From the IMG/VR virus record IMGVR_UViG_3300009599_000903, positions 1 through 28,989 of that record: DNA of 28,989 nucleotides. One strand, written 5' to 3'. Origin of the DNA: a virus. Made by a program: the position numbers and the translations under genes. Positions 1 through 28,989 of this stretch are shown one piece after another. Under the pieces are notes generated by a model. The model did not search any database and was not told the DNA's origin. It worked only from the letters and a program-made list of their open reading frames with translations. Numbering within the stretch: the stretch's first letter is position 1; every line of letters begins with the position of its first letter.

Positions 1-3000
1 GGCCTTTCTGATTTCTTCTATTTTTTCTGTTGCATGCTTTCTAGCTGCGCCATTCATGTTTTTCTGCTCATTTGCCCACCACTCACCTATCTTAAGCTTA
101 TCAACACTAATTCCTTGCTCATTTACTCTAAAATCTAAATAAGCTTTAAAGAATTCGTTGTTTATTCCTTTGATAGATGGAGATGACCTGGTGTAGTTTT
201 GTTCTATTTGTCGCTGAAGCTTATTTAAAAGCTTGTTCATGTCCCCTTTTGGTCCAGGAATCATTAGATTCATAACTCTAGCGTGGTAAACGAACTTGAT
301 TGTCTTATCTAGCTTTTCTTGTAAAGCTTGCGTGTCTGCAGCTATATACTCAACTATTTGTCCACTACCAACCCCAGAACTTCCTTTTTTAAACACACCT
401 TCTTTGTAAAGTGTTCTAGCCTCCATTAATTTGTCAAACTGCTCCATAGCAACGCCATACATACCCAGGTTTTCTTTTAAAAGCAAGGCCATTTCGTCAG
501 TATCCATACTGGTTTTTTCTAGGTCTGAAGAAATGTATTCTGGAATTATTTCATCTCCATAGATTTCATTCATTGCCATGTATGCAAAATCATAAAGAGG
601 CTCTGGAGCTGGAATAGGTGATGCGTTTTGAAGTACATCAAAAGCTGTTTGAACAAGAACACTATAGTTCTTTGATATCTCAAACTTATTTTCATATTCC
701 ATTGAGGTTTTATATATCTCTAGTAAAGTGTTATCAATGCCGCTTGTGGACTCATTCATTGAGCTTCTAAACCCTTCTAACGTCTCTCTTTGAGCTCTCG
801 GCATGTCTGATAAGGTTTCTGCATAATCAGCATCTTCTATACTTAATGCATCAGATATGAGTTTTGTCATTCCGCCTTCATATCTTTTTATATCATCTTC
901 ATCTGTGCCTAATAAACTAACTATACCTCCAATAATTCCCATTGTGGAAACACTATTTGTTGTTAGTTTTATCCCATTAAAAACAGATACCTCATTGACA
1001 ACACCCTGCATTCTTCTTCTAGCCTCTTCTCTTTGAACTTCTGGTAGTGTCTTATCTATACTTCTAGCATATTGATTTGCAAAGTTTGCTTTTGCGTTTA
1101 ACATAAATTTACCCCAAGGGAAGATAGTTCTTTGAGCGAATTTCGTGTTGTCGCTTGCATTTACAGCATAAAACTCAGCCTCAGAAGTTGGTTCTGTTTG
1201 CCTCATTGTTTCTGCTATTCTTCTATCCGCATATTCTATAGCTTCTTTGTTAGGGTTTTCATTTTCTTTTTTCCACCAAGCACCCATATCTTTAGGAATT
1301 ACTGCTCCTTGGTCTATTCTGTTTTGAAGATAATGAGACTCAAAAGCAGAATTTGCAGCAGCTCTATCTGCATTAGCTAAAAAGAACTCTAGAGATAATT
1401 CTGAGCTTTTAGTGATTGTATCTAAAAACGAATCCGCAGTATACTTTAGAGTCCTCATCTCATCTGAAAAAACACTACTATCCATATTAAATTTACTAAC
1501 ATAGTAATCAAGAGGTAGTTTTGTTTTGTCTCCTATAGCAAATTCAGCTTTCAGTGCGTTACGCAGTCCTGTTCTAGATTGCTTATATATGTTCGTGAGA
1601 TTACCACCTCCAATAAGATTGTTGGCCCATTGTGCGTATTTTGCAGTTTTTTGACCATTACCAACACCAGCCATACTATATAAAAACCTTGCATTGGCTA
1701 ATTGTAAATGGTTTTTTGCTCTTGCATCCGTCAACATGGGTATTGTTCCAGAAGTTGCACTGTAAAACTGAGATGCTGGTTGGTTTACTCTAGCTAGTCC
1801 TATTGCAGAAATAGTAGAGTAAAATGCTGCTCCAGCTTTTTTGTAAGTTGAAAAAACATTATTCATACTGCCAAAATCAGCATTCACGTTTTGACCTTGG
1901 CTAATCATGAAATTAAAAACCTCCATTCTAGAACCAAAATATTTTCTAACCATTTCATACTCTTTTGTATCCTTGAAAAGTCCTTCAAATTCAGAAGAGT
2001 TCACAATCATGTCTATCTGCTCAAAGTCGTTTCTAGAATTCATGTCTATAAAAGAGCCTTGCATTTGTTGGTATGCTCTTTCGAAATAGTTTCCAAAAGA
2101 CAGTCTAGAGTTTTCAAGAGTATCATCCATTACAATGTCTTGGAATACGCCAGCTATAGTTCCGTAGTTTGACGAACCTCCTTTATTACTTCCGTCAGAC
2201 CTTTCATTCCCATCTTCTCCTCTTCTAAAACTAGGAACATAAGTGCCATCTACGAAGTAAGTATCCTGTCCATCATAATCTTGCTTCCTTTTTTTAGCTT
2301 CTGCATGTGGAAATCTATTAGACAACCTATTTAAGGCGTTTACTATTGGGTCTTTAGCGTTTTTAGTTACATCATCATATGATAAAGCGTTTGTTACGCC
2401 AAGACGATTCAAAGTGTCTTCAAGCTGTCTGTAAAGAACTTCGTTTGTTGAATCTTTCTTATCTTTCTCATACTCCTGCTTTCTTAACTCAAGTTCTTTT
2501 AATAAACTGGCTTTTTGTCTTTGAAACTCCGTATCAAGACCTGTTGCTTGGTCTACTTCTCCAGACCTTCTTCTTAAATGTGCCAGAACTTGCATTTCAT
2601 ATGAAGTTTCTAGACTTCTCAAGTCTGTTGATATTTTGTTTTTTGGGTTTGCCTTGTTGTATGCTTTTATTTCATTAACAAACAAACTAGAATCTTGATT
2701 AATAAATTCTTGAGATGAGTTTATAGACGTGGCTACACCTCTATTAGCAGAAGAAACCAAATCTATAAAAGGCTTTCCTTTAGTAGTATTTTTAAATATA
2801 GCACCTAAAAATACGTCGGAAGTCATTAAGTTTTTAGGATTCAACTTTGTTCCTCCCATCATTATTTTTCTTCCTAAATTATTTAGGTATGGGTACAAGT
2901 CTTTTATAAAGTCAACTGGCTTTTTGTCTTTTAAATTAACATTTGGGTTACCTAAAATACTTATTGGACTGTTGTTATTTAAAACCTTTAAGTCGTTTAT

Positions 3001-6000
3001 TGTTTCCTGAGCGTCTAAAATAGTTTCTAGTCTAGCATATTTTGGTCTATTACCATTTTGAACATCTGTAAGAAATCCTGAAAGTATCTTTTTTTGTCTT
3101 TTATCCAAAGAATTATAAAGACCTTTTGATAAGTTTAAATTCTTTATTCTGGATATAATATTATTTGTTCTGTCCTTATCCTCTTGCTCTAAGTCGCTAG
3201 AATCGTCTTTAACCTGTTCTGCATCTGTTTGCTCTAAGTCTAGTTCAGTTTGAGCAGGCGGCTTTTCTGTAGTTGCTTTTTGCTCTATTTCTGATATAGC
3301 GGCATCAACATCAAAATCAGATTCTTCTGGTTGAGTTGTTTCTGCGTAATAATCAGAAACATTATTGAAATATCCAGAAACATCTACATTCTCATCTGGT
3401 TCTACCATTCGCTCTAAAACATCAGCTTTATATATCTGTGAAGCTCGCTCAATAACCCTTGAATCTTCACTTGTAAGGCTAAAACTTTCTTCTGGACCAG
3501 CTTCTTCTGAAAGCTCTGTCAGCGCTCGGTCTATAAGTTTTGTTTGCGTGTCTTTTGGTAAGAAATAATAACTAAGTTCGCTTGGGTACTTTGTAAGAAG
3601 CTTTCTCATTTTAGCTTTCTTTTCATCAATAAGCTTTTGAGTTGCGTTTATTTCTTCTGGCTTCCCACCTTCTTCCATTGTTGCTTGAAATCCTTCTAAA
3701 TCTGCAACACCTTGTAAGAAGTTTTTTTTGTCGCTAACACTCATCTGCTCTACTAACTCCTCTTTTCTCTGCATAATATTCATTATGCGAGTGTCTGCGT
3801 CTTTTTGCATTTCCAAAGCAGCCTCAAACCTTACATTGTTTTTTTCAACCCCAGAATTTTCAAGGTCATAAACAAGCTGGTCTGCGTTAAGCTTGTCTTT
3901 TACGGCTTCCATTTCTCCGTCAAGAGTTATTTTCCTATTTATTGTTTTATTTGCAATTTCATTAGCGTTTGGAGTAATTAATTTACCGCCAACCGACATA
4001 GCTGAACTGCTAAACAAAGAGTTTAATCCAGCGTCCTTAGCTAATTTAAGTGCTTTTTGAGAGTCATATTCCTCTAATCCAAAAGCAACTTGAGTAAGGT
4101 ATCCTGTGTATGCTATAAACTGCTCTTCAGGTACTTCACTAGCGATAACCCTAGCGTCTAGACCCGTATATTTTGAAAAAGAAGCTATCAACCCCTTCCT
4201 GTTTTGTCTTGCAAAAGCGTCTGTTAATTGTTGAGCAGATTCCTGTGTTTTTGGAATGTTTTTGAATCCGTTTGCAAGTTTTAATTGCTTAAAGTATCTT
4301 CCAGTAAAAGCGGCTGTTATAGCTGTTTCTAATCCTGCCTTAGAAAAAGCATATGCTCTAGCCTCGTTGTTAGACATTCCAAGTATACCCTTTTCCTTTT
4401 CCGTCAATATAGCTCCAGAAACTTGCGCTTGTTTAGCAGCGTCTTTAGCATCCCTAACCTCTTCAATACTACCTCCGTAAGTGCTACCAAAAGTAACACC
4501 TAGGCCCACAGTAGGGTTAGCGATAAAAGCGCCTATATATGGTACAGAAGCTGTAAAGCCTTGCATTCCATATGACAAAAACTCACCCATACCCCTTGAG
4601 TCTGATATAGAACCGCTATATTCAGGAATTAAAGCCATTGCATCTTCAACATCTTTTTTAGATGGAAGACTAAGTTTTGTCAAGTTCATTGAAGGGCTAA
4701 ATCTTGAACCTCCTACAACAACTCCAAACTCTCCAAATACTGCATAATCAGCAGCTTCTCTACTCATGCCTAAAGCTTGAAAAGAATCAGAAATTCCTAC
4801 TCCAAAATTGTTTAATATATCTAATGTATGAGCATATATTCCTTGTGGAACGTCCATTAATCCTCTCAAAAAAGAGTTTAATCTTGGGTTTCCTTCGTCC
4901 AAAAAAGCAGTGTTTCTTTCTTGACTTGTTTTTAATTTACCAACTAATTCGTTAAAAAGCCCGACATCTACAGTGTCATCTATTGAGACCTTTATATCCC
5001 CTCTTTGTATGTATCCTAGAGTTTTTGGTGTTGATATTAAATCATACACGTCTTGAAATGATGCTTGCTTGTCATTTATCATTAAGGACGGAAGTGGCAT
5101 ATCTAACATATCAAGACCGCTATTTACTAGACCGCCTATAATTTCTTCGTCATGCAAATCAACCTGGCCTATAGCAGCGCTTCGTTTTAAAGCCTTGCCT
5201 AAAAGTTTAGATGTATTTCTTTTTGATGTTTCATATTTTTTTATTATATCATCTATCTTTCGGTAAGTCGATTTAACTCTGTTGTTGCTTTCAATTTCTT
5301 GTTCAGATAGAGATGTCTGTGGGTTTTCTGGTAAAACAAGATTATCTGTTTTTACGCTTGATAACGTAGCCATTCTTACTTCTCTTTGGTATTCAGATTC
5401 TTGATTAACTATATTATTATACGCAGGCGATATACTACCCTTAAGCTGCTGTAAAGCAGACATAAATAGTTCTGGGTTAAATGTACCTCCTGTGTTAAAT
5501 AAAGTAGAGTTTTCCTCACCAGTAAGAGCTTTAGAAAGAAATGATAAATCTTGTTCTTCTGGCTTGTTCATTTGCCTTGTAAAAAGCAGCATTCCCTCGT
5601 TGACTCCATACGGATTACTATCAAACTGGTCAGCCATAACCTGGACAAGATTCTGCTTTCCAAGAGCTAAATCCATCACAAACTTATTGTGTTTTAAGTT
5701 TAGTGATTGATTGTAGTCATCACTCCTAACCACCTCATACAAATCATCTCCCATATCAGACATCAAATTGATTTCTAATACACTATCGTCTGGTCTTGAA
5801 ATTTTTAAACTATTAGAGCCAGCTTCAGTCTCCATAGCATTATACCCAAAGTCACTTAAAATATCATTAAAGGCTAAGGCAGCATCTCCTTCACCCATAG
5901 TAAGTAAATTCCTAGGGAGTTGCCTTATTACTGGAAGTATACTGTTGTTCTCGTTTAGTTGCTCTGTATAGTATTCTGTAACTCTTGGCTGAGGTATATC

Positions 6001-6132
6001 CGATAAGCTAGTCGGCTCTTGAGAACCCGATGTTAAAGGAGTAGTTTCCAATATGGATTGAGAATCCGTATCTTCTGCCGTAGGAACAATTGCATTTTCC
6101 TGAAGTGAGTTTTTTAAAGTCTGAACTTGATT
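1..6132 (-). CDS. Giant internal virion (cargo/ejection-type) protein, main C-terminal part, partial at left edge
   Basis: One frame is open from base 6132 to base 1 (2044 codons, no stop); I read it line by line. It has no start of its own near 6132. It is the continuation of the 6484 start after skipping one A in the A11 tract, giving a protein of more than 2160 residues whose C-terminus lies beyond the window. In fused numbering, residues about 620-690 are glycine-rich and hydrophobic, about 1050-1110 are very acidic and Gln/Glu-rich like a linker, and about 1315-1345 are charged and coiled-coil-like. A short hydrophobic stretch lies near 1845. I recognise no enzymatic motif. Size, mixed helical/linker composition and position as the last gene after the muzzle and two other candidate internal proteins match the huge cargo/ejected proteins of crAss-like podoviruses. 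That role is inference; the open frame is seen directly. Confidence 0.75.
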
Positions 6133-6484
6133 TTTTTTTTTCAACCTTTACTTGGTCTACCCAAGTAGATGATAGTTTTTTCCAACTATTGTCATCTAAA
6201 ACCTCCTGTCCAGTTTTTCCATGAGCCCAGTTAACCCAATATCTAATGTCTGAAGTAGAAGATATTTGTCTAAGCTTACTCTCATTATATCCTTTACCAG
6301 CGTTATCGTAAAGAGAAACTAAATAAGAATAAACCTTTTCCTTGTTAACAGGTGGGTCTGGGTCTACTGATACATCAGTAGCAGAAGCATCTTGAACATC
6401 ATTTGTCCCTTCAGCAATAACTGTGTCTTTATTTAATTCCTCAGGAGCTAATCCTTCAACTTGATTTTCTGTGTTCACAATCAT
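6008..6484 (-). CDS. N-terminal part of the giant internal virion protein (frame broken at A11)
   Basis: The ATG at 6484 lies 2 bases after the stop of the preceding 678-residue gene. Residues 1-118 look genuine: an acidic, Asp/Pro-rich leader, then a small compact domain containing VYSYLVSLYDNAGKGYNESK and WVNWAHGKTGQEVLDD. After Lys118, read through A11 (6131-6141), the frame gives a short Ser/Lys/Cys/Gly-rich tail to a stop at 6008 that looks unlike phage protein. Skipping one A joins Glu-Lys-Lys to the open frame beginning Asn-Gln-Val-Gln-Thr-Leu and running to base 1. I therefore read this as the head of the giant protein, not an independent 158-residue gene. If the break is natural, slippage could yield both a short and a giant product. 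Confidence 0.7.
   Translation of the reverse strand: MIVNTENQVEGLAPEELNKDTVIAEGTNDVQDASATDVSVDPDPPVNKEKVYSYLVSLYDNAGKGYNESKLRQISSTSDIRYWVNWAHGKTGQEVLDDNSWKKLSSTWVDQVKVEKKKSSSDFKKLTSGKCNCSYGRRYGFSIHIGNYSFNIGFSRAD
6131..6141 (-). other. A11 homopolymer at the frame junction of the giant protein
   Basis: The coding strand carries G followed by eleven A. Read straight through, it gives Glu-Lys-Lys-Lys, then Ser-Ser-Ser and an early stop. With ten A (or thirteen) it joins the 2044-codon open frame. Runs of A this long are known sites of RNA polymerase slippage and also of sequencing and assembly indels. Confidence 0.7.
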
Positions 6485-9171: not shown

Positions 9172-9945
9172 TTACATGTAGCTCTTAAACACCTCTGCGT
9201 TTGCCCCATAGAGTTCCACAAAACTTGTAGAATTATTATTTAATGTTATTGTTGCGTGATAACCACGTAAACCATAAGATTCTGACTCTGCGTTTTTAAC
9301 AACAAAACAAAAATCGTTTACGGATGGTGTATTTGTTGAAGAAACAGTTGTTATCGTATTACCTGTAAACGAATCAATTACACCAATCTCTTGAGTGCTT
9401 CCGTCATTAAAGTATAATACATCTCCTCCTATTGAGTCAGCGTTATTCGCATTTACCTGATTAGGCACTTGATTAGTAAACTCATACTGATTCGCCCCTG
9501 GAATAGCTTGAAGCTCTCCTATACCAAGAATAGAAAGCTTGTTAAAATCAAGGCTGTTATTTGAATTTCTTCTTATATGCGCATATCTAAAACCCTCTTT
9601 ACTTTCAAATAATAAATTACTCGAACTACCTATAGCCCCAGCCTCTTGCTCTGATGATAAAGTGGCATACCAACTGTCAGAATTTGTTTCTAACCCTACT
9701 GTTTTAAAAACCTTTACATCAGATGGATTCTTATTTGAAGAGTATGTTATACTACATCCATAAGAAGAACCATAAAAGTTTGTTCTAGAGTTGTTTTCAT
9801 CGTGAATATACAACTCTCCGTTCTTGAAGGTGTAAAAGTTAGTGCCCAAACGTTCCATCCACTCAGGTTCGTATGAGTGAAAAGAAGTCCATGCAGTGTA
9901 AACCTCGTCAAATGTTATTGTTCTTTGTCCTGTTTGTAGTGCCAT
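9172..9945 (-). CDS. Tail protein related to the C-terminal part of muzzle/gp10-like proteins, 257 aa
   Basis: The ATG at 9945 lies one base past the stop of the 1771-residue muzzle gene. The N-terminal third carries TFDEVYTAWTSFHSYEPEWM and FYTFKNGELYIHDEN. From memory, this signature of a tyrosine/phenylalanine-rich beta strand followed by a 'FKNG-LY-H' turn occurs near the C-terminus of P22 gp10-like and crAss-like muzzle proteins. The remainder is beta-rich, Asn/Ser/Thr-rich and ends SFVELYGANAEVFKSYM. The tight spacing and motif suggest this is the final domain of the muzzle, encoded separately here, and that the protein assembles on the tail barrel. A minor tail or fibre-attachment role is the alternative. 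Confidence 0.65.
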   Translation of the reverse strand: MALQTGQRTITFDEVYTAWTSFHSYEPEWMERLGTNFYTFKNGELYIHDENNSRTNFYGSSYGCSITYSSNKNPSDVKVFKTVGLETNSDSWYATLSSEQEAGAIGSSSNLLFESKEGFRYAHIRRNSNNSLDFNKLSILGIGELQAIPGANQYEFTNQVPNQVNANNADSIGGDVLYFNDGSTQEIGVIDSFTGNTITTVSSTNTPSVNDFCFVVKNAESESYGLRGYHATITLNNNSTSFVELYGANAEVFKSYM

Positions 9946-9946
9946 A

Positions 9947-12900
9947 TTATCCGTCGTCTTCTATTACTGGCCAAGTTATACCATCTGGAGTAAACCCAAG
10001 CGTGTTAAGCGCACTTGTCACCCAATATAAGTAATAATATTGCCATTGGTCAAATCTATCAGTTGTAGAGCCTGGTTTAAATGGAGCAGTAGCGTCATTG
10101 TTTGTGCTATCTTCAAGGTCATACTCAAATACAAATGTAGGTGAAGTTCCTCCCATCAAATCAGATAGACAATTTGTTCCTGTGTAGTTTCCTGCACCGA
10201 ATTCAACATTCTCCAAAAACGCTTTGAATGGGTAAATTGGATTTCCCATATTATCTTCTACGTGGAAAACAACTCCCCTATAAAAACCTGTATTAGTAGA
10301 ATTTAAAGAAGTAACTCTTGACCTTAAGTCAGCAAGGTCTGTGTTGTAATCTGCTGTCCTTCCTTCGGTTACTTGGGTAAAAGTATCACTAGCTCTAGAA
10401 TCGTGATAAATAGTACTCGCTTCGTCTTGGAAAACCATCATTATCACATTAGATGCGTCTGAAGGGAACGCGGTGTGTGTGCCTGTATTTATAAAATTAT
10501 TAACATGAATATCAGAAAGAGCAGCAAGGGTTTGTTCATTTGTCCATAAATTATTAAAAGGAGTTGGATTATAAACAATAGAAACCTTATTATCATACTC
10601 ATCACTACCGTTAGTTGTAGTGTCTGTATTACCACTTGACTCCGTGCCTCCTGTTGCGTATAAATCTTGAAGCGTAGATTTTAAAGCTCCAGTACGCATG
10701 GTTTGAAGTTCTGCAAGAGTGGTATTCATAGAGCCTGAAGCATCAAAATATATGTAAATATATGTATCAACACTAATAGCTATTGCTTGAGTAGTTACTG
10801 TTGCTTCTGCGCTACAAACTCCCCCTCTGTCTATAATGTAAGTAAAACTGTCATCTAAGTCTGCCTCTGCGGTATGAGTATAGGTGATAGTGTTGTCAGC
10901 ATTAATAACAACCGTTCCGTTTGTTGGTTGTGTGCCTATCGTAATAGTATAAGGCGAAGGAATTGTATCATTAGCAACTACATTAATTGTTGTGCTTCCT
11001 CCGTTTGTTATTCCCGTTATAGAATCATCAACTAATACTGGAAGTTGGTCAATGTAGTTCCAAATCAAGTATAATTTTTGACTTGTATTATTTCTGTTAA
11101 AAGTAAATGAAGTTGTGTTCTCCTCATCTCCATTAGCTAGTGTTTGTCCTGTAACTGATGGATATGTAGCTTGGTCTATTATATTTTGAACAGTCAACCC
11201 ACTCGCAGCAGAAACTAAATAACCTAAGCTATTACAATCATTGAAATCTCCAGTATGAACTCCTGACTGTTTTAATGAAGAAAGCGTTACAGTGTCACCG
11301 TTGTCTGGAATAATATCAGTTCCCATAAAACCAGATAAAGTTTCAAATCTTGTCAATTCATCAGCGTCAAAAATATCTAAATCGGCATTAAACACACCTC
11401 CTTGAGCCCCATCGTGCTTGTATCTGTTGATAATGGTTTGGTTAGCCTCTCCTTCGTCATTAACTACAACTAATATTACTTCAAGAGTTTCTGGTTCTGG
11501 ACATGTGTGTGCCAATGTAATAAGAGAAGAAGATGCTGGTGTTATTGTTACATCTGCAATGTTTGTTGTCTCAAGGTCTGTTGACGTTACAGGGAAAGTT
11601 ACAGTTCCTGTTCCAGTAAGACCATTATTGGTATATGTGTTACCGTTGTAAACAACTACTATATCTATAGATGCTGATGTTGTGTATGCTATGGTAGCTG
11701 TACCCGCAAAAGACCCTAGGTTTAAATCGTAATTAAATGCTGAGGTAATTGTTCTTGTAAATGTAGAAGCACAATCCACTTCTAATGGTGGTTGAGGCAT
11801 TTGCTCGTTGCCCATAGATAAAACATATTGATGATACTTTGGGTCAAAACCACCTATGTTAAAGTTTGTTTTATTATTGTATAAGTTTTCCTTAAAAAAC
11901 GCCTTCATTCCTGCGTATGATATGGGTGTTATCCCATCTCCACCAAGTCTTAAAACAGCACCCCTATTAGGGTCTGCAAAATACATTCTACCCTCGTAAT
12001 GACCAAAAGACTCTGGATTTACAGAAATTCCGTATTCTCCAGAATAAGGAACATCTTGACCCAAAACTTTTTCTATTTGAGATATGCTTCCGCTTCCATC
12101 TGGGCTGTTTAGTATGTTTTTTCCGTAAAGAACCTTTGAAACTCTATCTTCTTGAAAAACAATCAAGTCCGATTCTCTAGCAAAGAGCTTTTGAATAGAA
12201 CCATATTTCATGTCCATATACTTTGTTATCCCTCTACTTGAGTTAAATTCATTTAATGTGTTATACCCAGTGTTTTCGTTAAAAGCGCCGCTATATATAA
12301 GTTTATTTGCGTCTTTTTTTCTCTCATAACCCTCCACTATAGCTATGTTTGGCCTAGATTTTATATCAAAAATAGGCTTAAATCTATCGTCTTTTACTCT
12401 TATTGATTCAGCGCCATTTCCAAAACTAAAACAGTTACCAAAACCAAGTACCGAAACAGCTGGTTGTGTAGCTGTTTGGTCTTGCTCATTACCTTTGTGT
12501 AGCCCATTTTCAATTAAAAAAGTCTCTTCAGTTTCGTAGTAAATCTCATCATCTATTTCGGTTGGCTCTGTTTCAAATATTAAAACTCCGTTAGTGAGAA
12601 TTAAATCTATATTAGTTGTTAAGTAAGACCTTTCCAAACCACTGGTTCTTTCTGATGTAGTTACATGAAGCAAAGTTAAGTCTGTTGTTGTATTTGCTTT
12701 ATAAAAAGTTAATATAAAATCATCACTAGGACTTTGCTGAAAAGATTCTATTCTAAAACGAACAGCTGTTGCGTCTCCCCCGTAGGAGACCTCCTCACTA
12801 GGAAAGGCTGTTTCATTTTCCATCCACTGAACAAATGTATTAAGCCTTGTTGGTGAATTAGCAGCACAAGTGTAATTTCCGTTGACAGTGAATTTTCCGT

Positions 12901-15262
12901 TCCAATTAAAATTATCACCTATCTCTTCGTATTTAAAGTCTAGTTTTATTTGTGAGCCAGTGTTTAAATCTTGATTTATATATGTACTACTACCTTCATC
13001 GAATATCTGTAGTATACCTTTGTTTTTATCTCCATAACTACCAAAACTTAAACCTGGAAAAAGAGAAAAATGTGGTAGAGTGTGATTATTATATCCGCTA
13101 CTTGTCCTACTTTTCTTACTTCTTTTATTGTAATTTTGAAAGTTATTAGGATTAAAATCCATATTAAAATTAAGTGGCCTAATTTTCATATAGGTTCCTG
13201 ATTTTTCAAGCACATCATTATCTGGTAGCCACCCCTTTTCACCTTGTGGTTCGTCAGCAGCATTTTTAGTAGTAACCTCAAGAACCTTACACTTTACCTC
13301 TTGGTCTAAAGGGCCGTCGTCATCTGACTTTACAATTAAAACTGTACCAGCTTCTACTTTTCCTAAATTTGCGCCCTGAAGCAAAACCCATCTATAAAGG
13401 TCTTCTTCGTAAAAAAGACTTGCATACATTGTAAAATGAGGTGTCTTATTTACCTTTACAAAATACTTGTATCTATTTGCCCAATAAGGTGCTGGATTTG
13501 ATATAGAAACTCTTAACTTATTTATATCTATACTGTTTTGTATAGGAACAAAAACCTCGCTGGAAGATTCTCCTAAAGATTCTTTTGGAAGTAAAACACT
13601 AGAATATCTTCCATATGAATCTAAATAAACCAAACCGACCTCATAGCTTCTCATGGATTTCAAAGAAACATTACTTGAATCTTCTTTTATAGCTGCAACA
13701 TTGTCTGTTTTAAATTTATATGGTTCGTCTATTTCTGTAAAATCATCGTCATCAGTAACAGCAGGAGTGTTGTCGACTGTGTGTGTTAATGTAGGAGCTA
13801 AAAGTGTAAAAGACGTTTGTGTGTTTGAGTCTAAAACAAATTCTCCATACTCTGTATCTGTAACATCATCTGGTGGAACCGTATTGACTACTGCAGAAAA
13901 AGAACCACTCAAAGACACTAAGAAGTCTAAAAACTCGTTAGATAAAACTATATCATCAAAAGTAGTGTAGTCTTGTGAAAGAACAAAAGCTCCTTGCACA
14001 TCTCCCTCTCCTCCAAAGTATTGGTTTGGAGCTGTACCCGCTTCATCAGATTCCAATAATAAAAACACAGATATAGTATTTCCTTCTTTAAGTTCATAAC
14101 CATCGAAATCAAAAGTTATTTTAGTGTCACCAGATGTTCTTGAGCCTTCTATTATTTCTCCCTCCTGTGACTTTATTTCTAGAGAAACATCATAATTTAT
14201 TTTTATCAATTCCTCCGAATCTTCCTCTTCCAGTAAATCGTATTGACTTGTCGTGTTTCCAAGAACTATTCTGTCGTTAATTATATCCTGAGCCTTTGCG
14301 GTTAAAGGAACATCATCGAAAGTTCTAAAAACCTCATCTTGTGGTAGTGTTTTGTATATTTTTTTATTAGCAAACTCATAAGTTTGATTAGTATTATCTA
14401 ATATAGAGCTTTCTTTTTTGTTTATATTGTCTATAACATATATTGTTGGCTCTACTGGGTATTTAAAAAGCAGTTGAATGTCTGTAACCCTGTGGTCTCC
14501 ACTGTCATAGGTTAATCTGTATCCATTAAAAACATTTTCCATTCCATTATTTTCCATAGAAGCAAAATCTATCTCAAATAGCTTGGGAGAAAATTTAAAG
14601 TAACTAAACGAAGAACAAGCAGAGTAACCCCCATCTAAATACCTATATCTAGTTGCAAATGCAAAAAAGTTTTCTTTGACAGCGTTTTCTGTTGCAACTC
14701 CCGTGTTAAAAGGAGTGACTTTAGGTGCTTGAAATGGTGGTTTTTTATACAAAGAAATATCATCTTCATAAAAATTGTTCAATCCATATGACTTTGACCT
14801 ATTGACATCAATCATTCTAGGCTGGTTTAACCCATCCGTAAACAACAAAAGCTTTGATTTTTTTGATGCGTTGTATATAACATTTACACCAGTGATTTTA
14901 TAGTCTTTACTAAACCCTAAAACTTGTTCGTCACCAACCCTTTCATCTGCTAGTACCTGAGATGTAATTTGATTTGTTCGGTCGTACTCATATATGTATG
15001 AAAATCCATCATCATTAACAATAAACCAATATATCTTTTCCTCTGCTTCATCTGAAACAGAGCCAATACACTCTGGGCTATTTAATAAATTGATGTTGGT
15101 TAGTTGTATGTTTCCTTTTTCATTTTCAATAGCACCTGCATCTGAGCCAGCGGTATTTAGTACACGAATGTTTTTAGCATCAATAAACTCGCCATTTTGA
15201 ATAAGACGTTCATCAACATCCTTATTCATTTTACCTGTAGAAAATAAATTTTGTATCTTCAT
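9947..15262 (-). CDS. Giant tail muzzle / P22 gp10-like protein with cadherin-like and VWA C-terminal domains, 1771 aa
   Basis: Starts at ATG 15262, one base after the preceding gene's stop. The N-terminus (KIQNLFSTGKMNKDVDERLI, then an 'AxNIRVLNTAGSDAGAIENEKGN' type pattern in two parts) is typical of gp10-like tail accessory and crAss muzzle proteins, whose body forms beta-propeller-like sheets. Around residues 1065-1155 is the family's FGHYEGRMYFADPNRGAVL region followed by IGGFDPKYHQYVLSMG. Beyond this lie extra modules: a pre-peptidase-type beta domain (about 1160-1255, paired Cys), a cadherin-like/tandem-95 repeat (about 1410-1485, with VVANDTIPSPYTITIG and QPTNGTVVINADNTITYTH), and a VWA domain (about 1498-1690) with an intact MIDAS motif Asp1507-x-Ser1509-x-Ser1511 (FDASGSMN). 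Role: closes and extends the tail barrel; the C-terminal modules probably project outward and bind host surface or metal-dependent ligands (inference). Confidence 0.8.
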   Translation of the reverse strand: MKIQNLFSTGKMNKDVDERLIQNGEFIDAKNIRVLNTAGSDAGAIENEKGNIQLTNINLLNSPECIGSVSDEAEEKIYWFIVNDDGFSYIYEYDRTNQITSQVLADERVGDEQVLGFSKDYKITGVNVIYNASKKSKLLLFTDGLNQPRMIDVNRSKSYGLNNFYEDDISLYKKPPFQAPKVTPFNTGVATENAVKENFFAFATRYRYLDGGYSACSSFSYFKFSPKLFEIDFASMENNGMENVFNGYRLTYDSGDHRVTDIQLLFKYPVEPTIYVIDNINKKESSILDNTNQTYEFANKKIYKTLPQDEVFRTFDDVPLTAKAQDIINDRIVLGNTTSQYDLLEEEDSEELIKINYDVSLEIKSQEGEIIEGSRTSGDTKITFDFDGYELKEGNTISVFLLLESDEAGTAPNQYFGGEGDVQGAFVLSQDYTTFDDIVLSNEFLDFLVSLSGSFSAVVNTVPPDDVTDTEYGEFVLDSNTQTSFTLLAPTLTHTVDNTPAVTDDDDFTEIDEPYKFKTDNVAAIKEDSSNVSLKSMRSYEVGLVYLDSYGRYSSVLLPKESLGESSSEVFVPIQNSIDINKLRVSISNPAPYWANRYKYFVKVNKTPHFTMYASLFYEEDLYRWVLLQGANLGKVEAGTVLIVKSDDDGPLDQEVKCKVLEVTTKNAADEPQGEKGWLPDNDVLEKSGTYMKIRPLNFNMDFNPNNFQNYNKRSKKSRTSSGYNNHTLPHFSLFPGLSFGSYGDKNKGILQIFDEGSSTYINQDLNTGSQIKLDFKYEEIGDNFNWNGKFTVNGNYTCAANSPTRLNTFVQWMENETAFPSEEVSYGGDATAVRFRIESFQQSPSDDFILTFYKANTTTDLTLLHVTTSERTSGLERSYLTTNIDLILTNGVLIFETEPTEIDDEIYYETEETFLIENGLHKGNEQDQTATQPAVSVLGFGNCFSFGNGAESIRVKDDRFKPIFDIKSRPNIAIVEGYERKKDANKLIYSGAFNENTGYNTLNEFNSSRGITKYMDMKYGSIQKLFARESDLIVFQEDRVSKVLYGKNILNSPDGSGSISQIEKVLGQDVPYSGEYGISVNPESFGHYEGRMYFADPNRGAVLRLGGDGITPISYAGMKAFFKENLYNNKTNFNIGGFDPKYHQYVLSMGNEQMPQPPLEVDCASTFTRTITSAFNYDLNLGSFAGTATIAYTTSASIDIVVVYNGNTYTNNGLTGTGTVTFPVTSTDLETTNIADVTITPASSSLITLAHTCPEPETLEVILVVVNDEGEANQTIINRYKHDGAQGGVFNADLDIFDADELTRFETLSGFMGTDIIPDNGDTVTLSSLKQSGVHTGDFNDCNSLGYLVSAASGLTVQNIIDQATYPSVTGQTLANGDEENTTSFTFNRNNTSQKLYLIWNYIDQLPVLVDDSITGITNGGSTTINVVANDTIPSPYTITIGTQPTNGTVVINADNTITYTHTAEADLDDSFTYIIDRGGVCSAEATVTTQAIAISVDTYIYIYFDASGSMNTTLAELQTMRTGALKSTLQDLYATGGTESSGNTDTTTNGSDEYDNKVSIVYNPTPFNNLWTNEQTLAALSDIHVNNFINTGTHTAFPSDASNVIMMVFQDEASTIYHDSRASDTFTQVTEGRTADYNTDLADLRSRVTSLNSTNTGFYRGVVFHVEDNMGNPIYPFKAFLENVEFGAGNYTGTNCLSDLMGGTSPTFVFEYDLEDSTNNDATAPFKPGSTTDRFDQWQYYYLYWVTSALNTLGFTPDGITWPVIEDDG

Positions 15263-15263
15263 A

Positions 15264-16151
15264 TTATTTTATCCACTTATCTCTTCCTCGTAAAATCTGA
15301 GTAAGCTCACCTAGTTTTATAGAGTTTAATCTAATTTTAGTATTTCTTAATGAAGCTGAAGCTTGTTTCTGAGCTCTTCTTACGATATATTCTTGAACCC
15401 CAAACTTTTGCTTTAATATGCTAGACACTAAGTAATCATACATAAACGTCTCTGCTAATTTATGAACTTTTATTTCATCATCAGCAAGTCCATATATTCC
15501 ATCAGATACATACTCTATAACAATCTGCTTGCCTAACAAGTCTGAGCTAAATAAAATAAAGCCTTGATTTTTATCTAATACATAACTACCATTGTTGTTA
15601 GCTGTAGAAGTATCCATTCCAAAATTTTGACCTAAATGATTTGGGTTTGGTTTTTTTGGAGTAGAAGATGATTGATTGCTCCAGTTAGTTTCTATAACAG
15701 GAGTCCCTGTAAGAGCATCATCGTTATTGTCCATAAGAATGTTTTTATGAACTGTATTGTCTTGCAAATAGCTTGTTGGAGTAGCTGTTCTGTAATTAGG
15801 CATTATTGGGTGAGTAAGACCCTCATCTCCAACAAATGAAACTTTTACACAGCTAACAAAATCATGAGGTAAATGCATCTTAAGTGTATCAGGAAGCTCT
15901 GCTTCGAATTGCTGAATTTCCCTTAACGCATCATAGTGAATCTCCTGCAGACCTCTTTTTGCGTGAAAAATAACTTCGTTTCTGTCAGCTTTGTTTATAA
16001 CCTTGTCGTCTCCTACGTATGTTAGTAAAAAATTATTTATAATATCCCTCAACAAAAGATACTGATATGTACCCCAGTTTTCATCTCTAGGGACGTTTCC
16101 GTTGTTTTGATAATATTCTCTATGGTCTATATGTGTTCCTATAATTGGCAT
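15264..16151 (-). CDS. Tail connector / ring protein (crAss-like ring family), 295 aa
   Basis: The ATG at 16151 is three bases after the previous gene's TAG; the stop TAA at 15264 touches the start of the muzzle gene. The N-terminal half has LLRDIINNFLLTYVGDDKVI followed by NKADRNEVIFHAKRGLQEIH. From memory, this block is conserved in neck and tail connector proteins of many phages, including crAss-like and marine phages. A variable Asn/Pro/Ser loop lies in the middle (about 155-195), then a conserved beta region (GFILFSSDLLGKQIVIEYVS), and a basic helical C-terminus with QKFGVQEYIVRRAQKQA. Together with the upstream gene it should build the ring stack between portal and muzzle. The exact ring position is not determinable here. 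Confidence 0.75.
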   Translation of the reverse strand: MPIIGTHIDHREYYQNNGNVPRDENWGTYQYLLLRDIINNFLLTYVGDDKVINKADRNEVIFHAKRGLQEIHYDALREIQQFEAELPDTLKMHLPHDFVSCVKVSFVGDEGLTHPIMPNYRTATPTSYLQDNTVHKNILMDNNDDALTGTPVIETNWSNQSSSTPKKPNPNHLGQNFGMDTSTANNNGSYVLDKNQGFILFSSDLLGKQIVIEYVSDGIYGLADDEIKVHKLAETFMYDYLVSSILKQKFGVQEYIVRRAQKQASASLRNTKIRLNSIKLGELTQILRGRDKWIK

Positions 16152-16154
16152 GCT

Positions 16155-16898
16155 CTATGAATTTTGTTTTGCGTATTCAACTTGCTCTTGCTGGGCTGTA
16201 ACCTGTACCACGTCAGCTTCCCTAATACTTAGACCAGCGTATTTACATATCTTAATTACTAGCTCCGTTTCATCTTCTTCAGATATTTCAAAATCTGTTG
16301 AACTATCTGCGTTATATACTGGGTCCGAGTTAATAGTTACATATCCCCAGTTTGGGTCTAAGGGCTTTCTTATGTAGTTTGCTTGCACTGAAGCCTGAAT
16401 TGATAGTGGGCGGACAAATATGTTATTACCAGAACGAACATACACGGGATATGTTACGGTTGGCTTAGTTAGATTGCTGTTCACAATCATATCAAATTTA
16501 TGCGGTGGAACTGATTGAACAATCCTTCCGCCACTCATTGATGTGTCTGTCCCAAAACCTCCTCCATAAGTAATATTTATTAATTTATAAAGGTCAGAAG
16601 GCAACTGAAAGTAATCTTGTTCTTCGCCGTTGTTTGAATCAATAGAGGTGTATGTTAAACTAGTGTTTGCGTAAAACCTATCTATTTTATCTTGAATGTG
16701 CTGAACTGTATCTCCATAATTTAAAGCTTTTTTTCTTGAGTTTTGCAAGGACACAGCCTTAGAAATGTCTGTAAAATAAGACTCAAAAATCTCTAATTGA
16801 GCTTGCTTTGCAAAATAATTAAACTCTGATGGCGATACATACCCCCTGTTATCTTTGTTCAGCAAAAACAAAACAGTATTTCTTATGCTATTTATCAT
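16155..16898 (-). CDS. Tail tube / ring protein (head-tail connector family), 247 aa
   Basis: First gene after a strong terminator and behind its own promoter-like element; ATG at 16898, TAG stop at 16155. The N-terminus (MINSIRNTVLFLLNKDNRGY then VSPSEFNYFAKQAQLEIFES) and the later YIRKPLDPNWGY motif (about residues 178-189) are, as I recall them, hallmarks of the ring protein that accompanies the 295-residue family in crAss-like and other Bacteroidota podoviruses. In between is beta-rich sequence with DYFQLPSDLYKLINITYGGG. The C-terminus is a Gln/Glu-rich helix (about 215-247). Expected role: a dodecameric ring below the portal that links the head to the tail barrel. Confidence 0.75.
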   Translation of the reverse strand: MINSIRNTVLFLLNKDNRGYVSPSEFNYFAKQAQLEIFESYFTDISKAVSLQNSRKKALNYGDTVQHIQDKIDRFYANTSLTYTSIDSNNGEEQDYFQLPSDLYKLINITYGGGFGTDTSMSGGRIVQSVPPHKFDMIVNSNLTKPTVTYPVYVRSGNNIFVRPLSIQASVQANYIRKPLDPNWGYVTINSDPVYNADSSTDFEISEEDETELVIKICKYAGLSIREADVVQVTAQQEQVEYAKQNS

Positions 16899-22929: not shown

Positions 22930-23403
22930 TTATTTAATAATTTCACTAACAAAACCTTTGTTACTGTATTTGGCAAAGTTAAGATTTATTTGATTACGTT
23001 TTTCTCGACCTATATTTTTTGTGGACTGATTTGCCATTATTGCAAAACCCGAACTAACCGTAGCGTCAAACCTTGTTCTATTGTTAATATCATAATTAGC
23101 CCAGTCTAAAAGAGTTCTGTTGAAAAACATGTTTCCACAACTCCCGTAGTCTGAATTTGCTTCATCTCTAAGTACGCCAACATGGTTTTCAATATAGCTT
23201 TCAATATTCTCTGCATGAACAGATATTACAGCACTAGAAGAAGGTATTCCACCTAATTCTTTTTCTGATTTTGACAATATATTCCTGTGTTTATCTGGTC
23301 TGTTTATTGAAAATGCTCTATATCCTCTTTCTTTTAAATAGTATAAAATTCTAGGCTTATTGTTCTCAAGCAATATAGGCATGCCATAAAAGTGAAGAGC
23401 CAT
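22930..23403 (-). CDS. Terminase large subunit, C-terminal nuclease part (frame-separated)
   Basis: The frame is read from at least 23433, ahead of the first ATG at 23403: Thr-Ala-Glu-Ile-Phe-Tyr-Glu-Asp-Val-Leu then MALHFYGMPILLENNKPRIL. This is the 'TAEIFYED...ENNKP' signature of the second acidic nuclease motif of this terminase family. Near the end, TRFDATVSSGFAIMANQ carries the third conserved Asp of the RNase H-like nuclease. The first ATG is therefore internal to a conserved motif and is unlikely to be a true start. Joined to the upstream frame, the terminase would be about 748 residues, a normal length for the group. Ends two bases before the portal start. Confidence 0.8.
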   Translation of the reverse strand: MALHFYGMPILLENNKPRILYYLKERGYRAFSINRPDKHRNILSKSEKELGGIPSSSAVISVHAENIESYIENHVGVLRDEANSDYGSCGNMFFNRTLLDWANYDINNRTRFDATVSSGFAIMANQSTKNIGREKRNQINLNFAKYSNKGFVSEIIK

Positions 23404-25177
23404 TAAAACGTCTTCGTAAAATATCTCTGCTGTTTGGTCTTGATATATACTCTAAGAAAAACATGTTTGTTGGCGCATCTTCCATATGAAACTTAGTCAT
23501 TCCATGAACAGAGCCTTTGGAACCACCACCACCGACAACTCCTGATATATCATATGAATCCCCTCCAAAAGAACCTATATGTGCATTTCCTGGATGTTTT
23601 CTTCCATTTTTTTCAACCACATTATTAATTAATCCTTTGGATGGAATCCAAGAAACAAAAAATCTACCCTTTACGTCTGGAGAGAAAACAACTTCAGTGT
23701 CTCTCAATCCGTTTTTCCAATGAAAATTACCCCTTGACACTGTTGATTTTATAGCAAAAGAATCGTTATAATCAATCTGTTCGTATATTTTTGTTAAATT
23801 AAATATTGTGTTTTTAGACTCATCTCTAAACGCATGAGACTCTGTTCTTGGGAATTGCCTATAATATTCATTTAGAGCATCTGGGTCGTTCTTGAGGCTA
23901 TCTACTTCATTTTGCCAATACTCTAAAGCTCCTTGGTGAATGTAATCACCATTGGTACTAACTATTGGTGATTTTGGAGTTTGCAGAACAGGTTGACCGT
24001 ACATATCAATAAATCCCTCCATATTCCATTCCATTGGAATAAATAGATTATAAAGACCACTCTTTGTTTGTCCATTAGAGTTTCTAGAAGATGTGTCTGA
24101 ATCGTAATATAGTTTTTTAAAGTTTTCGCCTCCTTTATCTAATGCGTTTGAGGTGGAGCCCATCATGCATTTGCCAATGATTCTGCTACCCAATCTCAAA
24201 CAGGTTTTTGTGACCCTCCAGTTGTTAAGTATATTATCTGGCTTTTCCCATTTTCCACTTTCATCATGCACAAGAAGAGCTAATTTTTCTCCATCATAAC
24301 TGTTGTCTCCCGTATTCTTCCAATCAATAGTAGTATCTAACCCTTGAAGGTCACTATTTGTTTTAAGGCTAGACATGGATTTCCTTGTTAGCTTAGAAGC
24401 TGGAACTCTATATGCAAGCTCTGATTTAGGCCTGTCCATACCATCTTGTATGGGTTTAAAGAAAAATGGATAATTTACTGAAATAGGAACAACTTTGTCC
24501 GTAAACATTTTTTTTGCGTCACTACCTGTTTTTGATAATATTCCAAACCTAGAGTCTGAGGTTATTGTTGCTTGGTTTACTGTTTCTGAGGAAGACATAA
24601 ACGAGAACCCCGAACGCCTATTCTTTAAGTAGCACATTCCATAGCACCTGTTATCCGCTTTACATGCCTCCCAATAAATAAAAAATATTCTATTTGATTC
24701 CCTATATTCTGGCCTTCCTACATCAATCTTTGTCCATTGTAAGTACATGTAATGTGTACCAGTTATGTACACTGGTTTTCCATTATTCATAAACCAAAAC
24801 CCATTTTCCCTCCTGTCGAACTCGTTTTCAATATAGGGAATCCAAGTCTCCTTGAACTCTTTGTTCATTTCATTCCATTGAAATATAGTTTGTAGTGGTT
24901 TTAGTGCTTTTGAGTATTCTGAAGCTTCCCAGTATTGCTCCTTTTTATCTAATGACCGTTTGTGAACTTTTGTTGGTTTTTTAGGAAGTGCAATATTGAG
25001 ATTGTTTATTTGAACCACATCCCCAATAGTTCCGTCTTTAGATATTACGATTACATCTAACTCTTTGTCATAGCCGTAATTGAATGATTTTTTTGCGTTC
25101 TTTTTTTTCATTACCTTCTCAGGAATGAAATCTTCTATCACACATAGTAAATCATTATTTAGACCTTCTTTCAGCAA
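23366..25177 (-). CDS. Terminase large subunit, N-terminal ATPase part and start of nuclease (603 aa as read)
   Basis: The motor that drives DNA into the procapsid and cuts it. The ATG at 25177 overlaps the preceding gene by 23 bases; Met23 (25111) is an alternative. Residues 80-180 carry the lead region (FWFMNNGKPVYITGTHYMYL). A Walker A-like loop is at 185-193 (KNRRSGFSF, Phe where Lys is usual), Walker B at 299-306 (LALLVHDE, catalytic pair Asp305-Glu306), and the coupling motif at 340-345 (GSTSNA). The nuclease begins at about 500, with the first metal-binding Asp in GGDSYD (538-543). Up to Pro581 the sequence is family-like. After that the frame gives a short Arg/Ser-rich tail to a stop, whereas one frame over continues the nuclease. 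Without rejoining, two of the three nuclease acidic motifs are missing. Confidence 0.88.
   Translation of the reverse strand: MLKEGLNNDLLCVIEDFIPEKVMKKKNAKKSFNYGYDKELDVIVISKDGTIGDVVQINNLNIALPKKPTKVHKRSLDKKEQYWEASEYSKALKPLQTIFQWNEMNKEFKETWIPYIENEFDRRENGFWFMNNGKPVYITGTHYMYLQWTKIDVGRPEYRESNRIFFIYWEACKADNRCYGMCYLKNRRSGFSFMSSSETVNQATITSDSRFGILSKTGSDAKKMFTDKVVPISVNYPFFFKPIQDGMDRPKSELAYRVPASKLTRKSMSSLKTNSDLQGLDTTIDWKNTGDNSYDGEKLALLVHDESGKWEKPDNILNNWRVTKTCLRLGSRIIGKCMMGSTSNALDKGGENFKKLYYDSDTSSRNSNGQTKSGLYNLFIPMEWNMEGFIDMYGQPVLQTPKSPIVSTNGDYIHQGALEYWQNEVDSLKNDPDALNEYYRQFPRTESHAFRDESKNTIFNLTKIYEQIDYNDSFAIKSTVSRGNFHWKNGLRDTEVVFSPDVKGRFFVSWIPSKGLINNVVEKNGRKHPGNAHIGSFGGDSYDISGVVGGGGSKGSVHGMTKFHMEDAPTNMFFLEYISRPNSRDILRRRFNGSSLLWHAYIA
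23432..23437 (-). other. Frame junction in the terminase large subunit (CCA-AAC)
   Basis: The coding strand reads AGA-CCA-AAC-AGC-AGA. Skipping one A gives Arg-Pro-Thr-Ala-Glu-Ile-Phe-Tyr-Glu-Asp; a two-base step back after AAC gives Arg-Pro-Asn-Thr-Ala-Glu, which would keep the spacing I recall for the family. Only three A occur here, so homopolymer slippage is a weak explanation. Confidence 0.65.
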
Positions 25178-27674: not shown

Positions 27675-28989
27675 TTATTTTTGTTTATCTTCTAAATCTT
27701 TTACCTTAGCTGTAAGTTCTTTTATTGATTCAATAAGAACCGCTGTTAGTTTAGGGTAGTCTACAGCCTTATATCCATTTTCTCTGGTTTCAACAATTTC
27801 TGGAAAAACCTTTTCAACTTCTTGTGCTATTACACCTATATCTTTTTTTCCAGTTTTTTTATGCGATAGTTCATTCCATTCAAAACTAACCCCTCTAATG
27901 GAGTTTACCTTATCCAAAGAGTTTTTTATAGTTGATATATTCTCTTTATATCTTTTGTCTGATGAGTAATAGGCAACAATATCTCCAGCTACTCTAATTG
28001 AATCCCCAGTATTTCCTCCATCAAAATAATAACCAGAGTTACTTTTGGTTACAAACTTAAGACCTGTTACTGCTGCCCCAGTGCTTGATGTAGGGCTTCC
28101 AACATACAGAGAATTACTTGTCCATATAGAAGCGTAATAAGCGCTAATGCTGGGGTTTCCATAAGAATTTCTAAAACCTATTGACTTGGATTCATTTGTA
28201 AATATATGCCCATTAAACTCGTTATTAAAGTCGCCATTTACATTTGCTATAAACACAGTACCTCCAGATGTAGTTCCGTTTGTATTATTAGCGTTTGATA
28301 TGATATCAGCAACCTGATTTCCAATCCCAGCCTTAACCTTTACATTAAGCTGTTGGTAATTCCCTGGAGACCTAACTTGTAACTCATATCTATTTTTTCC
28401 CGTCTCTTCTATCTTATACCATCTAACAATACCTGATATAGCAAATGGTACACTTGCGTGAGCTGTTTCAGGCTCAGTCCCAGTGGCTCCCCAATGATAA
28501 ATACTAAGAGCCCCTCTATAAAACTCGCCTCCGTTATATAATGCATTACCATAGTTTCCGCTAAAATTGGTAATTTCTATTTCCGCCCCAAAGCCTGAAT
28601 AGCTGGCGTCACTTATAATAACATCACAAAGTTTTTTCCAGTTAAGGTCAGTACTTCCACCAACACTCCACTCCATTTCTGGAGTTTCTAAGTTGCCATG
28701 TTTTCTATGGCCTCCTGCGATGGTTCCTAAAACGTTAATAGCATAATTTCCGCTTGTAACTAAATCTACTCCATCTTTAGACGCATTTCCATTAAAGAAA
28801 TAAGCAGTATTTAATCTATCATAGTATATATCAGCCGCCACATTCCCAATTACATGTAGTTTTTGTCCAGGGCTAATCGTCCCAATACCGACTTCTCCAG
28901 ATGTACTTAAAAACATTCTGCTAGTCGTAGCCACGGTGTTTGATGTCTGAGTATCTACTCTAAAATCAAGACCATAACCACCATCTGAA
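27675..28989 (-). CDS. Tail fibre/spike with C-terminal S74 self-cleaving chaperone domain, partial (5' end beyond the window)
   Basis: The frame is open to the right edge; codons upstream of the apparent GTG at 28934 (reading Ser-Asp-Gly-Gly-Tyr-Gly-Leu-Asp) continue the protein, so the true start lies outside. The visible N-terminal part has LSTSGEVGIGTISPGQKLHV, the 'GIGT..P...L.V' repeat that heads S74 fibres. About 250 residues of Gly/Asn/Ser-rich beta sequence follow. The C-terminus is a peptidase S74 intramolecular chaperone: SDKRYKENISTIKNSLDKV with the catalytic Ser near visible residue 343, then GVIAQEVEKVFPEIV and YPKLTAVLIESIKELTAKV as a trimer-forming helix. In this family the domain trimerises the fibre, then cleaves itself off at that Ser. 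Likely role: host recognition. Confidence 0.88.
   Translation of the reverse strand, partial: SDGGYGLDFRVDTQTSNTVATTSRMFLSTSGEVGIGTISPGQKLHVIGNVAADIYYDRLNTAYFFNGNASKDGVDLVTSGNYAINVLGTIAGGHRKHGNLETPEMEWSVGGSTDLNWKKLCDVIISDASYSGFGAEIEITNFSGNYGNALYNGGEFYRGALSIYHWGATGTEPETAHASVPFAISGIVRWYKIEETGKNRYELQVRSPGNYQQLNVKVKAGIGNQVADIISNANNTNGTTSGGTVFIANVNGDFNNEFNGHIFTNESKSIGFRNSYGNPSISAYYASIWTSNSLYVGSPTSSTGAAVTGLKFVTKSNSGYYFDGGNTGDSIRVAGDIVAYYSSDKRYKENISTIKNSLDKVNSIRGVSFEWNELSHKKTGKKDIGVIAQEVEKVFPEIVETRENGYKAVDYPKLTAVLIESIKELTAKVKDLEDKQK

Follow-up and report, generated by a model that had tools for sequence, protein, structure and literature searches.

The window, i.e. the whole stretch of DNA that was analysed, is a virus record of 28,989 bases with podophage structural genes. 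Its large ORFs all lie on the minus strand and encode terminase, portal, head and tail proteins and a muzzle. The portal matched phrog_6547 (E 1e-156). Its nearest isolates were MW202828 (53% identity, Manatee Spring) and then the flavobacterial elemo phages (44%), and the isolates nearest to the muzzle were phi18:3 and its kin (34%). These isolates belong to the crAss-like phages known from Flavobacteriia (Pachyviridae, Pervagoviridae, Elemovirus), and the window phage is a marine crAss-like podophage related to Flavobacteriia phages. The frame of the terminase large subunit (22930-25177, minus strand) is broken: towards its end, ORF 23366-25177 is out of frame, and ORF 22930-23403 seems to encode the remainder of the protein, by a frameshift that is either real or a sequencing error. 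A second frameshift is possible near 6008-6144, where a 158-aa ORF (6008-6484, minus strand) overlaps the giant ORF 1-6144 and the C-terminus appears out of frame.

The features of the muzzle locus are listed in Table 1. The initial annotation had taken the 1771-residue ORF for a phage muzzle protein, and the profile searches agreed. The crAss_MUZ profile (PF25731) matched the start of this chain and phrog_14478 spanned residues 3-1516, while the end of crAss_MUZ (profile positions 1187-1223) and crAss_MUZ_C (PF25729) were found in the adjacent ORF 9172-9945 and not in the 1771-aa ORF. Together the two chains thus carry the sequence signature of the crAss muzzle family. The gene order is also that of the family, as the muzzle adjoins tail ring-type proteins in the structural module; the neighbouring ORFs 15264-16151 and 16155-16898 matched virion structural families, and their order was kept in relatives.

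Table 1. Features of the split muzzle and its appended tail, with positions in the window.
Feature	Position	Strand	Evidence or remark
Muzzle chain 1, 1771 aa (stop included)	9947..15262	-	PF25731 E 1.4e-15; phrog_14478 E 4.7e-280
Muzzle core, residues 1-1155, to propeller split point	11798..15262	-	Alignment of split and unsplit muzzles
First part of appended tail, residues 1156-1405, beta-rich	11048..11797	-	Common to phi18:3
Big_9/cadherin-like Ig domain, residues 1406-1490	10793..11047	-	PF17963 E 6e-10; Ig sandwich in model
Exchanged cassette, about residues 1481-1740, borders approximate	10043..10822	-	Nucleotide identity drop; unaligned DNA
VWA-fold domain, residues 1493-1771 (predicted)	9950..10786	-	AlphaFold2 pLDDT 85.7, pTM 0.87; integrin beta I-like neighbours
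MIDAS motif 1, D1507-A-S1509-G-S1511	10730..10744	-	D and S invariant, middle S/T, 25 sequences
MIDAS motif 2 candidate, T1578 (NEQT)	10529..10531	-	T 20, S 5 of 25; first residue of helix in model
MIDAS motif 3, D1613 (FQDE)	10424..10426	-	Invariant in 25; directly after central strand
Muzzle chain 2, 257 aa, rest of propeller and C-terminal domain	9172..9945	-	PF25729 crAss_MUZ_C E 2.3e-10; PF25731 end

The ATG of chain 2 lies one base past the stop of chain 1. When split and unsplit muzzles were aligned, the two chains of the window jointly missed nothing at the junction; the chain break falls between ...HQYVLS and TITFDE..., at the predicted turn of a propeller beta-hairpin. The earlier claim of a VWA domain fused to the muzzle holds in so far as the domain sits on a muzzle protein, but this muzzle is incomplete: the VWA ends the first of two chains, and MUZ_C lies in the second. 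In a set of 103 distinct muzzles, seven had MUZ_C in the same ORF, all without an appended tail, and tail lengths in the split muzzles ranged from 235 to 1253 aa. Each of the 27 VWA muzzles whose ends were complete was split, and split muzzles without a VWA were common in the same set of 103.

The tail of the window, with its Ig and VWA domains, is attached at the new C-terminus made by the split. Elsewhere this position holds other domains, such as ten TSP1 repeats in L091 (PF19028, E 5e-121), BACON in L123 (and below the cut-off in L143), and Big_9 without a VWA in L102 and L086. Hence, the split point is a display site for exchangeable modules (VWA, TSP1, BACON, Ig). The TSP1 repeats, surprising in a phage, occur in related phages either as part of the muzzle tail or in a small separate gene that lies between the muzzle halves (L091:3618-10439, L091:10473-10979, L093, L094). 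Two extra genes separate the muzzle halves at L106:6144-7672, by eye glycosyltransferase-like and methyltransferase-like. In L065, L091 and L094, chain 2 is followed by a gene of 130-136 aa that is acetyltransferase-like; its counterpart in MW202828 bears the annotation N-terminal acetyltransferase complex subunit.

No Pfam model matched residues 1156-1405, with which the appended tail begins. The cadherin-like module that had been proposed for the C-terminal part was confirmed as a Big_9 domain, with 40.3 bits against a cut-off of 23.6 and an E of 7e-11 when the C-terminal part alone was the query; Cadherin_4/5 matched more weakly. The model of this Ig domain reached a Z of about 10 to Ig domains of phage collars. 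The interval originally assigned to both modules, 9947-11000, encloses the VWA but cuts the Ig domain, which starts near 11047.

Residues 1493-1771 of the window had no Pfam match of any kind, and hence none to a Pfam VWA model. Among 19 family members, the best Pfam VWA match was CobT_C VWA in one member (E 0.15), and sequence searches of Pfam, PHROGs and the PDB gave no significant VWA match; by sequence, the domain is not assigned to any Pfam VWA family. In contrast, structure prediction produced the VWA domain that had been suspected at the muzzle C-terminus. AlphaFold2 modelled the domain alone (278 aa, 25 sequences) with alternating strands and helices at the values given in Table 1, and the Ig and VWA domains together, with an alignment of relatives, at a pLDDT of 77 and a pTM of 0.75. 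In a second-look structure comparison of the VWA model with VIA-align, integrin beta I-like domains scored best, with Z 8.2-9.4 and rmsd 3.3-4.7 across some 160 residues. They were followed by Rpn10, Sec23/24, heavy chain 1 of ITI (ITI-HC1), Ku and the alpha-1 I domain, so that nearly all neighbours were VWA folds. These are moderate Z values, and the structure compared is a predicted model; a Foldseek search of the PDB with this model gave nothing significant (best E 0.08). Because model quality, the homogeneous neighbour list and motif conservation agree, we assign the predicted structure of residues 1493-1771 to the VWA fold superfamily.

The Asp-x-Ser-x-Ser motif, previously read as an intact MIDAS, stood up to comparison with relatives. 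In 25 sequences, 42-76% identical to the window, positions 1507 and 1613 were Asp and position 1511 was Ser throughout, position 1509 was Ser in 20 and Thr in five, and position 1578 was Thr in 20 and Ser in five. All 25 thus had DxSxS or DxTxS, Thr or Ser, and Asp in the order of the VWA superfamily. As all five positions were kept with Ser/Thr exchange only, DxSxS is not a chance motif. The model places residues 1507, 1509 and 1511 after strand 1, T1578 at a helix start and D1613 after a later central strand. Order and places match what is expected of a MIDAS, and we infer from the model topology and the conservation that the five residues lie together. Furthermore, the same five sequences carry Thr at 1509 and Ser at 1578; this paired change is consistent with adjacent side chains, and as the five form one clade it was perhaps one event. 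The predicted MIDAS probably holds a divalent metal. As a candidate for motif 2, THT at residues 1590-1592 was dropped, because it is unconserved and close to D1613, whereas position 1578 is Thr or Ser in all sequences. Variability within the VWA was highest in surface loops, where residues 1615-1636 and 1669-1677 had a mean entropy near 2 bits.

The suspicion that the C-terminal region is swapped between relatives was supported by protein and nucleotide comparisons, trees and synonymous sites alike. Between the window and L014, L020 and L022, the VWA was only 50-52% identical, against 93-96% for the muzzle core, 94-96% for residues 1151-1395, 94-95% for the Ig domain, 89-95% for chain 2 and 98-99% for the upstream tail protein. 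Nucleotide identity between the window and L014 was 97-100% at residues 1341-1460, fell to 33-73% through about 1481-1730 and exceeded 80% from about 1741. The pair L007/L021 had the same cassette borders, and in the nucleotide comparison of close relatives the identity outside the cassette was 95-100% before the drop. Over 16-17 kb of compared structural DNA, the VWA was the only stretch that did not align; the other 300-base bins were 74-98% identical.

Synonymous differences per site were 0.11 in the flank (residues 1001-1480) and 0.71 in the VWA for the window and L014, and 0.37 and 0.73, respectively, for L007 and L021. Because synonymous sites were near-saturated inside the VWA and less diverged in the flank, these data imply that a foreign VWA allele was brought in by recombination; fast evolution as the cause of the divergence was rejected, since synonymous sites diverge too. 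Within allele classes, dN/dS was mostly 0.08-0.23, with one outlier of 0.90 that rests on few synonymous changes. The VWA tree separated two allele classes with full support, whereas in the flank tree these classes need four changes and a grouping of class II together was rejected (AU p 4e-5). Moreover, L015 carried a VWA 70-75% identical to that of the window on a muzzle only 29-32% identical, with a chain 2 of 36%. Contig chimerism was judged unlikely, as class II alleles recurred across six or more contigs that came from different metagenomes, in intact ORFs followed by MUZ_C.

The VWA is replaced as a cassette, as are receptor-binding modules of phages. Exchange is not unique to it, because muzzle residues 101-1000 (window 12263-14962) are also mosaic between some lineages, being 24-78% identical to L016 and L001 with flanks of 80-100%. 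By sequence comparison, this is a second exchanged region, which makes the tail tip a mosaic at more than one site. Of all segments compared, exchange is sharpest in the VWA.

Another virus record, of 94 kb (L058), encodes a 376-aa protein with a VWA of the same subfamily. A genome scan yielded two bacterial-looking loci, besides two muzzle contigs binned in metagenome-assembled genomes (MAGs): a lipoprotein-like Ig+VWA protein of a Marinimicrobia MAG (L068) and a protein of a Chitinophagaceae MAG (L069). No VWA match was found in 295 other genomes from the phylum of the latter, in the isolate phages searched, or in the plasmids searched with L069 as query. Judged from these searches, the subfamily appears rare in bacteria, and a wide bacterial origin was not found. 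At L068:2537-6040, tandem lipoprotein-like paralogues share an N-terminal Ig-like part and differ in their C-terminal modules, one of which is the VWA.

We consider it probable that the VWA is an exchangeable, metal-dependent, putative host-receptor-binding module on the tail tip of a crAss-like podophage. Residues 1-1155 of chain 1 would make up the muzzle jointly with chain 2 (9172-9945), and from its free C-terminus chain 1 would display a stalk of beta-domains, of which Big_9 is the recognisable one, capped by the VWA. If the hexamer of phi-crAss001 applies, each virion would probably expose six copies at its surface. As in integrin I domains, a ligand on the cell surface would supply the acidic group that completes the coordination of the divalent metal in the MIDAS. 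Recombination in the conserved flanks would swap VWA alleles and so probably shift receptor specificity. We favour receptor binding because the VWA sits on a free C-terminus, behind an Ig stalk, and is swapped as a cassette, because the same slot carries other binding-type modules (TSP1, BACON, Big_9) elsewhere, and because the tail fibres of extracellular contractile injection systems (eCIS) offer a VWA precedent (PMC12923769). Another candidate host-recognition protein is encoded at 27675-28988 (minus strand); it resembles a tail fibre, carries an intramolecular chaperone of the Peptidase_S74 type (E 7.5e-18) and may be the main receptor binder instead.

The main rival is a structural role, in which the MIDAS metal would dock the VWA to a virion protein (tail fibre, fibre hub, cargo or chain 2) and stabilise the split muzzle without host contact. 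VWA domains often mediate protein-protein contacts inside complexes, and both the split of all 27 complete VWA muzzles and the retention of the MIDAS in all alleles fit such a joint. However, the many split muzzles that lack a VWA indicate that it is not needed for the split, and no other gene in the compared 16-17 kb, which does not include the tail-fibre genes, changes together with the VWA. We regard the structural role as unlikely. Alternatively, the VWA, TSP1, BACON and Ig modules could hold the virion in mucus, capsule or polysaccharide and thereby raise the encounter rate, without binding a specific receptor. The variety of binding-type modules in one slot agrees with this, and phage BACON and Ig-like domains have been proposed to act in this way; whole-allele exchange in otherwise near-identical phages, however, suggests selection on specificity and makes general adhesion quite improbable. 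That the domain is merely Rossmann-like, with DxSGS kept for structure and no metal bound, would suit the lack of a Pfam VWA match and of a significant Foldseek hit, but it is very hard to reconcile with the conservation of five MIDAS positions in 25 of 25 sequences, the joint Ser/Thr change at 1509 and 1578, and a VIA-align list made up almost wholly of VWA folds.

If the VWA binds a receptor, the domain might also act as an integrin-like switch, in which a ligand bound at the MIDAS would displace the last helix, and the Ig stalk, rooted in the split propeller blade, would pass this movement on and loosen the muzzle gate. We hold this to be distinctly doubtful, but it would couple recognition and ejection in one tail-tip protein. 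Host recognition at the tail tip of crAss-like podophages is poorly known. The present case names a display slot, the muzzle split point, together with a module that has a predicted metal site, and it places adhesion domains that are well known in the surface proteins of animals (the VWA, and in related phages TSP1) at one position on the tail tip of phages. That close relatives have replaced the VWA by a strongly divergent one, with little change in the other structural DNA compared, suggests a part that recognises the bacterial host. As natural allele pairs differ in this region almost only in the VWA, a role of the muzzle in host recognition is directly testable.

In phi-crAss001, the muzzle gp44 forms the distal end of the tail as a hexamer and gates ejection (Bayfield 2023, PMC10172136). 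Accordingly, the VWA module would belong to the distal end of the tail and not to the tail barrel, where the initial annotation had put it. The window muzzle shares with gp44 the PF25731 and PF25729 family, the presumed distal position and Ig-like domains, but gp44 is one chain with Ig domains inserted in the propeller, and a VWA is not described in the part of that paper available to us; its exposed loops are proposed there to contact the cell surface, and its insertions are noted as a source of variable surface (PMC10172136). Closer in architecture is Cellulophaga phage phi18:3 (Baltivirus), whose two-gene muzzle, gp114/gp115, has the same tail start and Big_9; both proteins were detected in virions by mass spectrometry. 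It has about 150 other residues after the Ig domain instead of a VWA (34% identity). Cellulophaga phi38:1, Flavobacterium elemo and Tenacibaculum Gundel phages have a homologous muzzle core and MUZ_C, but in one unsplit chain without an appended tail.

With integrin beta I-like and alpha I domains, the VWA of the window shares the predicted fold and the five MIDAS positions, at 11-16% identity, and no evolutionary link is claimed. The Marinimicrobia protein L068:2881-3975 has a VWA of the same subfamily (about 42% identical) behind an Ig-like domain and a lipoprotein-like N-terminus, but is apparently a cellular surface protein and not part of a muzzle. Halovirus VWA proteins occur in a different setting, with AAA-ATPase partners or CobT. 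In a literature search that covered mostly open-access papers, neither a phage muzzle with a VWA nor a paper joining von Willebrand with crAss-like turned up. A published catalogue lists VWA modules on eCIS tail fibres (eBAP4; PMC12923769). Like the window protein, these combine VWA and Ig-like modules on a tail-derived particle and are viewed as acquired receptor-binding domains, but they sit on tail fibres of contractile injection systems and not on a muzzle, and the likeness is one of description. Furthermore, a VWA adhesin of a type IV pilus, PilB, is known (PMC8179133). Modular binding domains of phages and VWA domains on eCIS fibres and on a pilus are therefore known, and what is new here is the unusual fold and its position on the muzzle.
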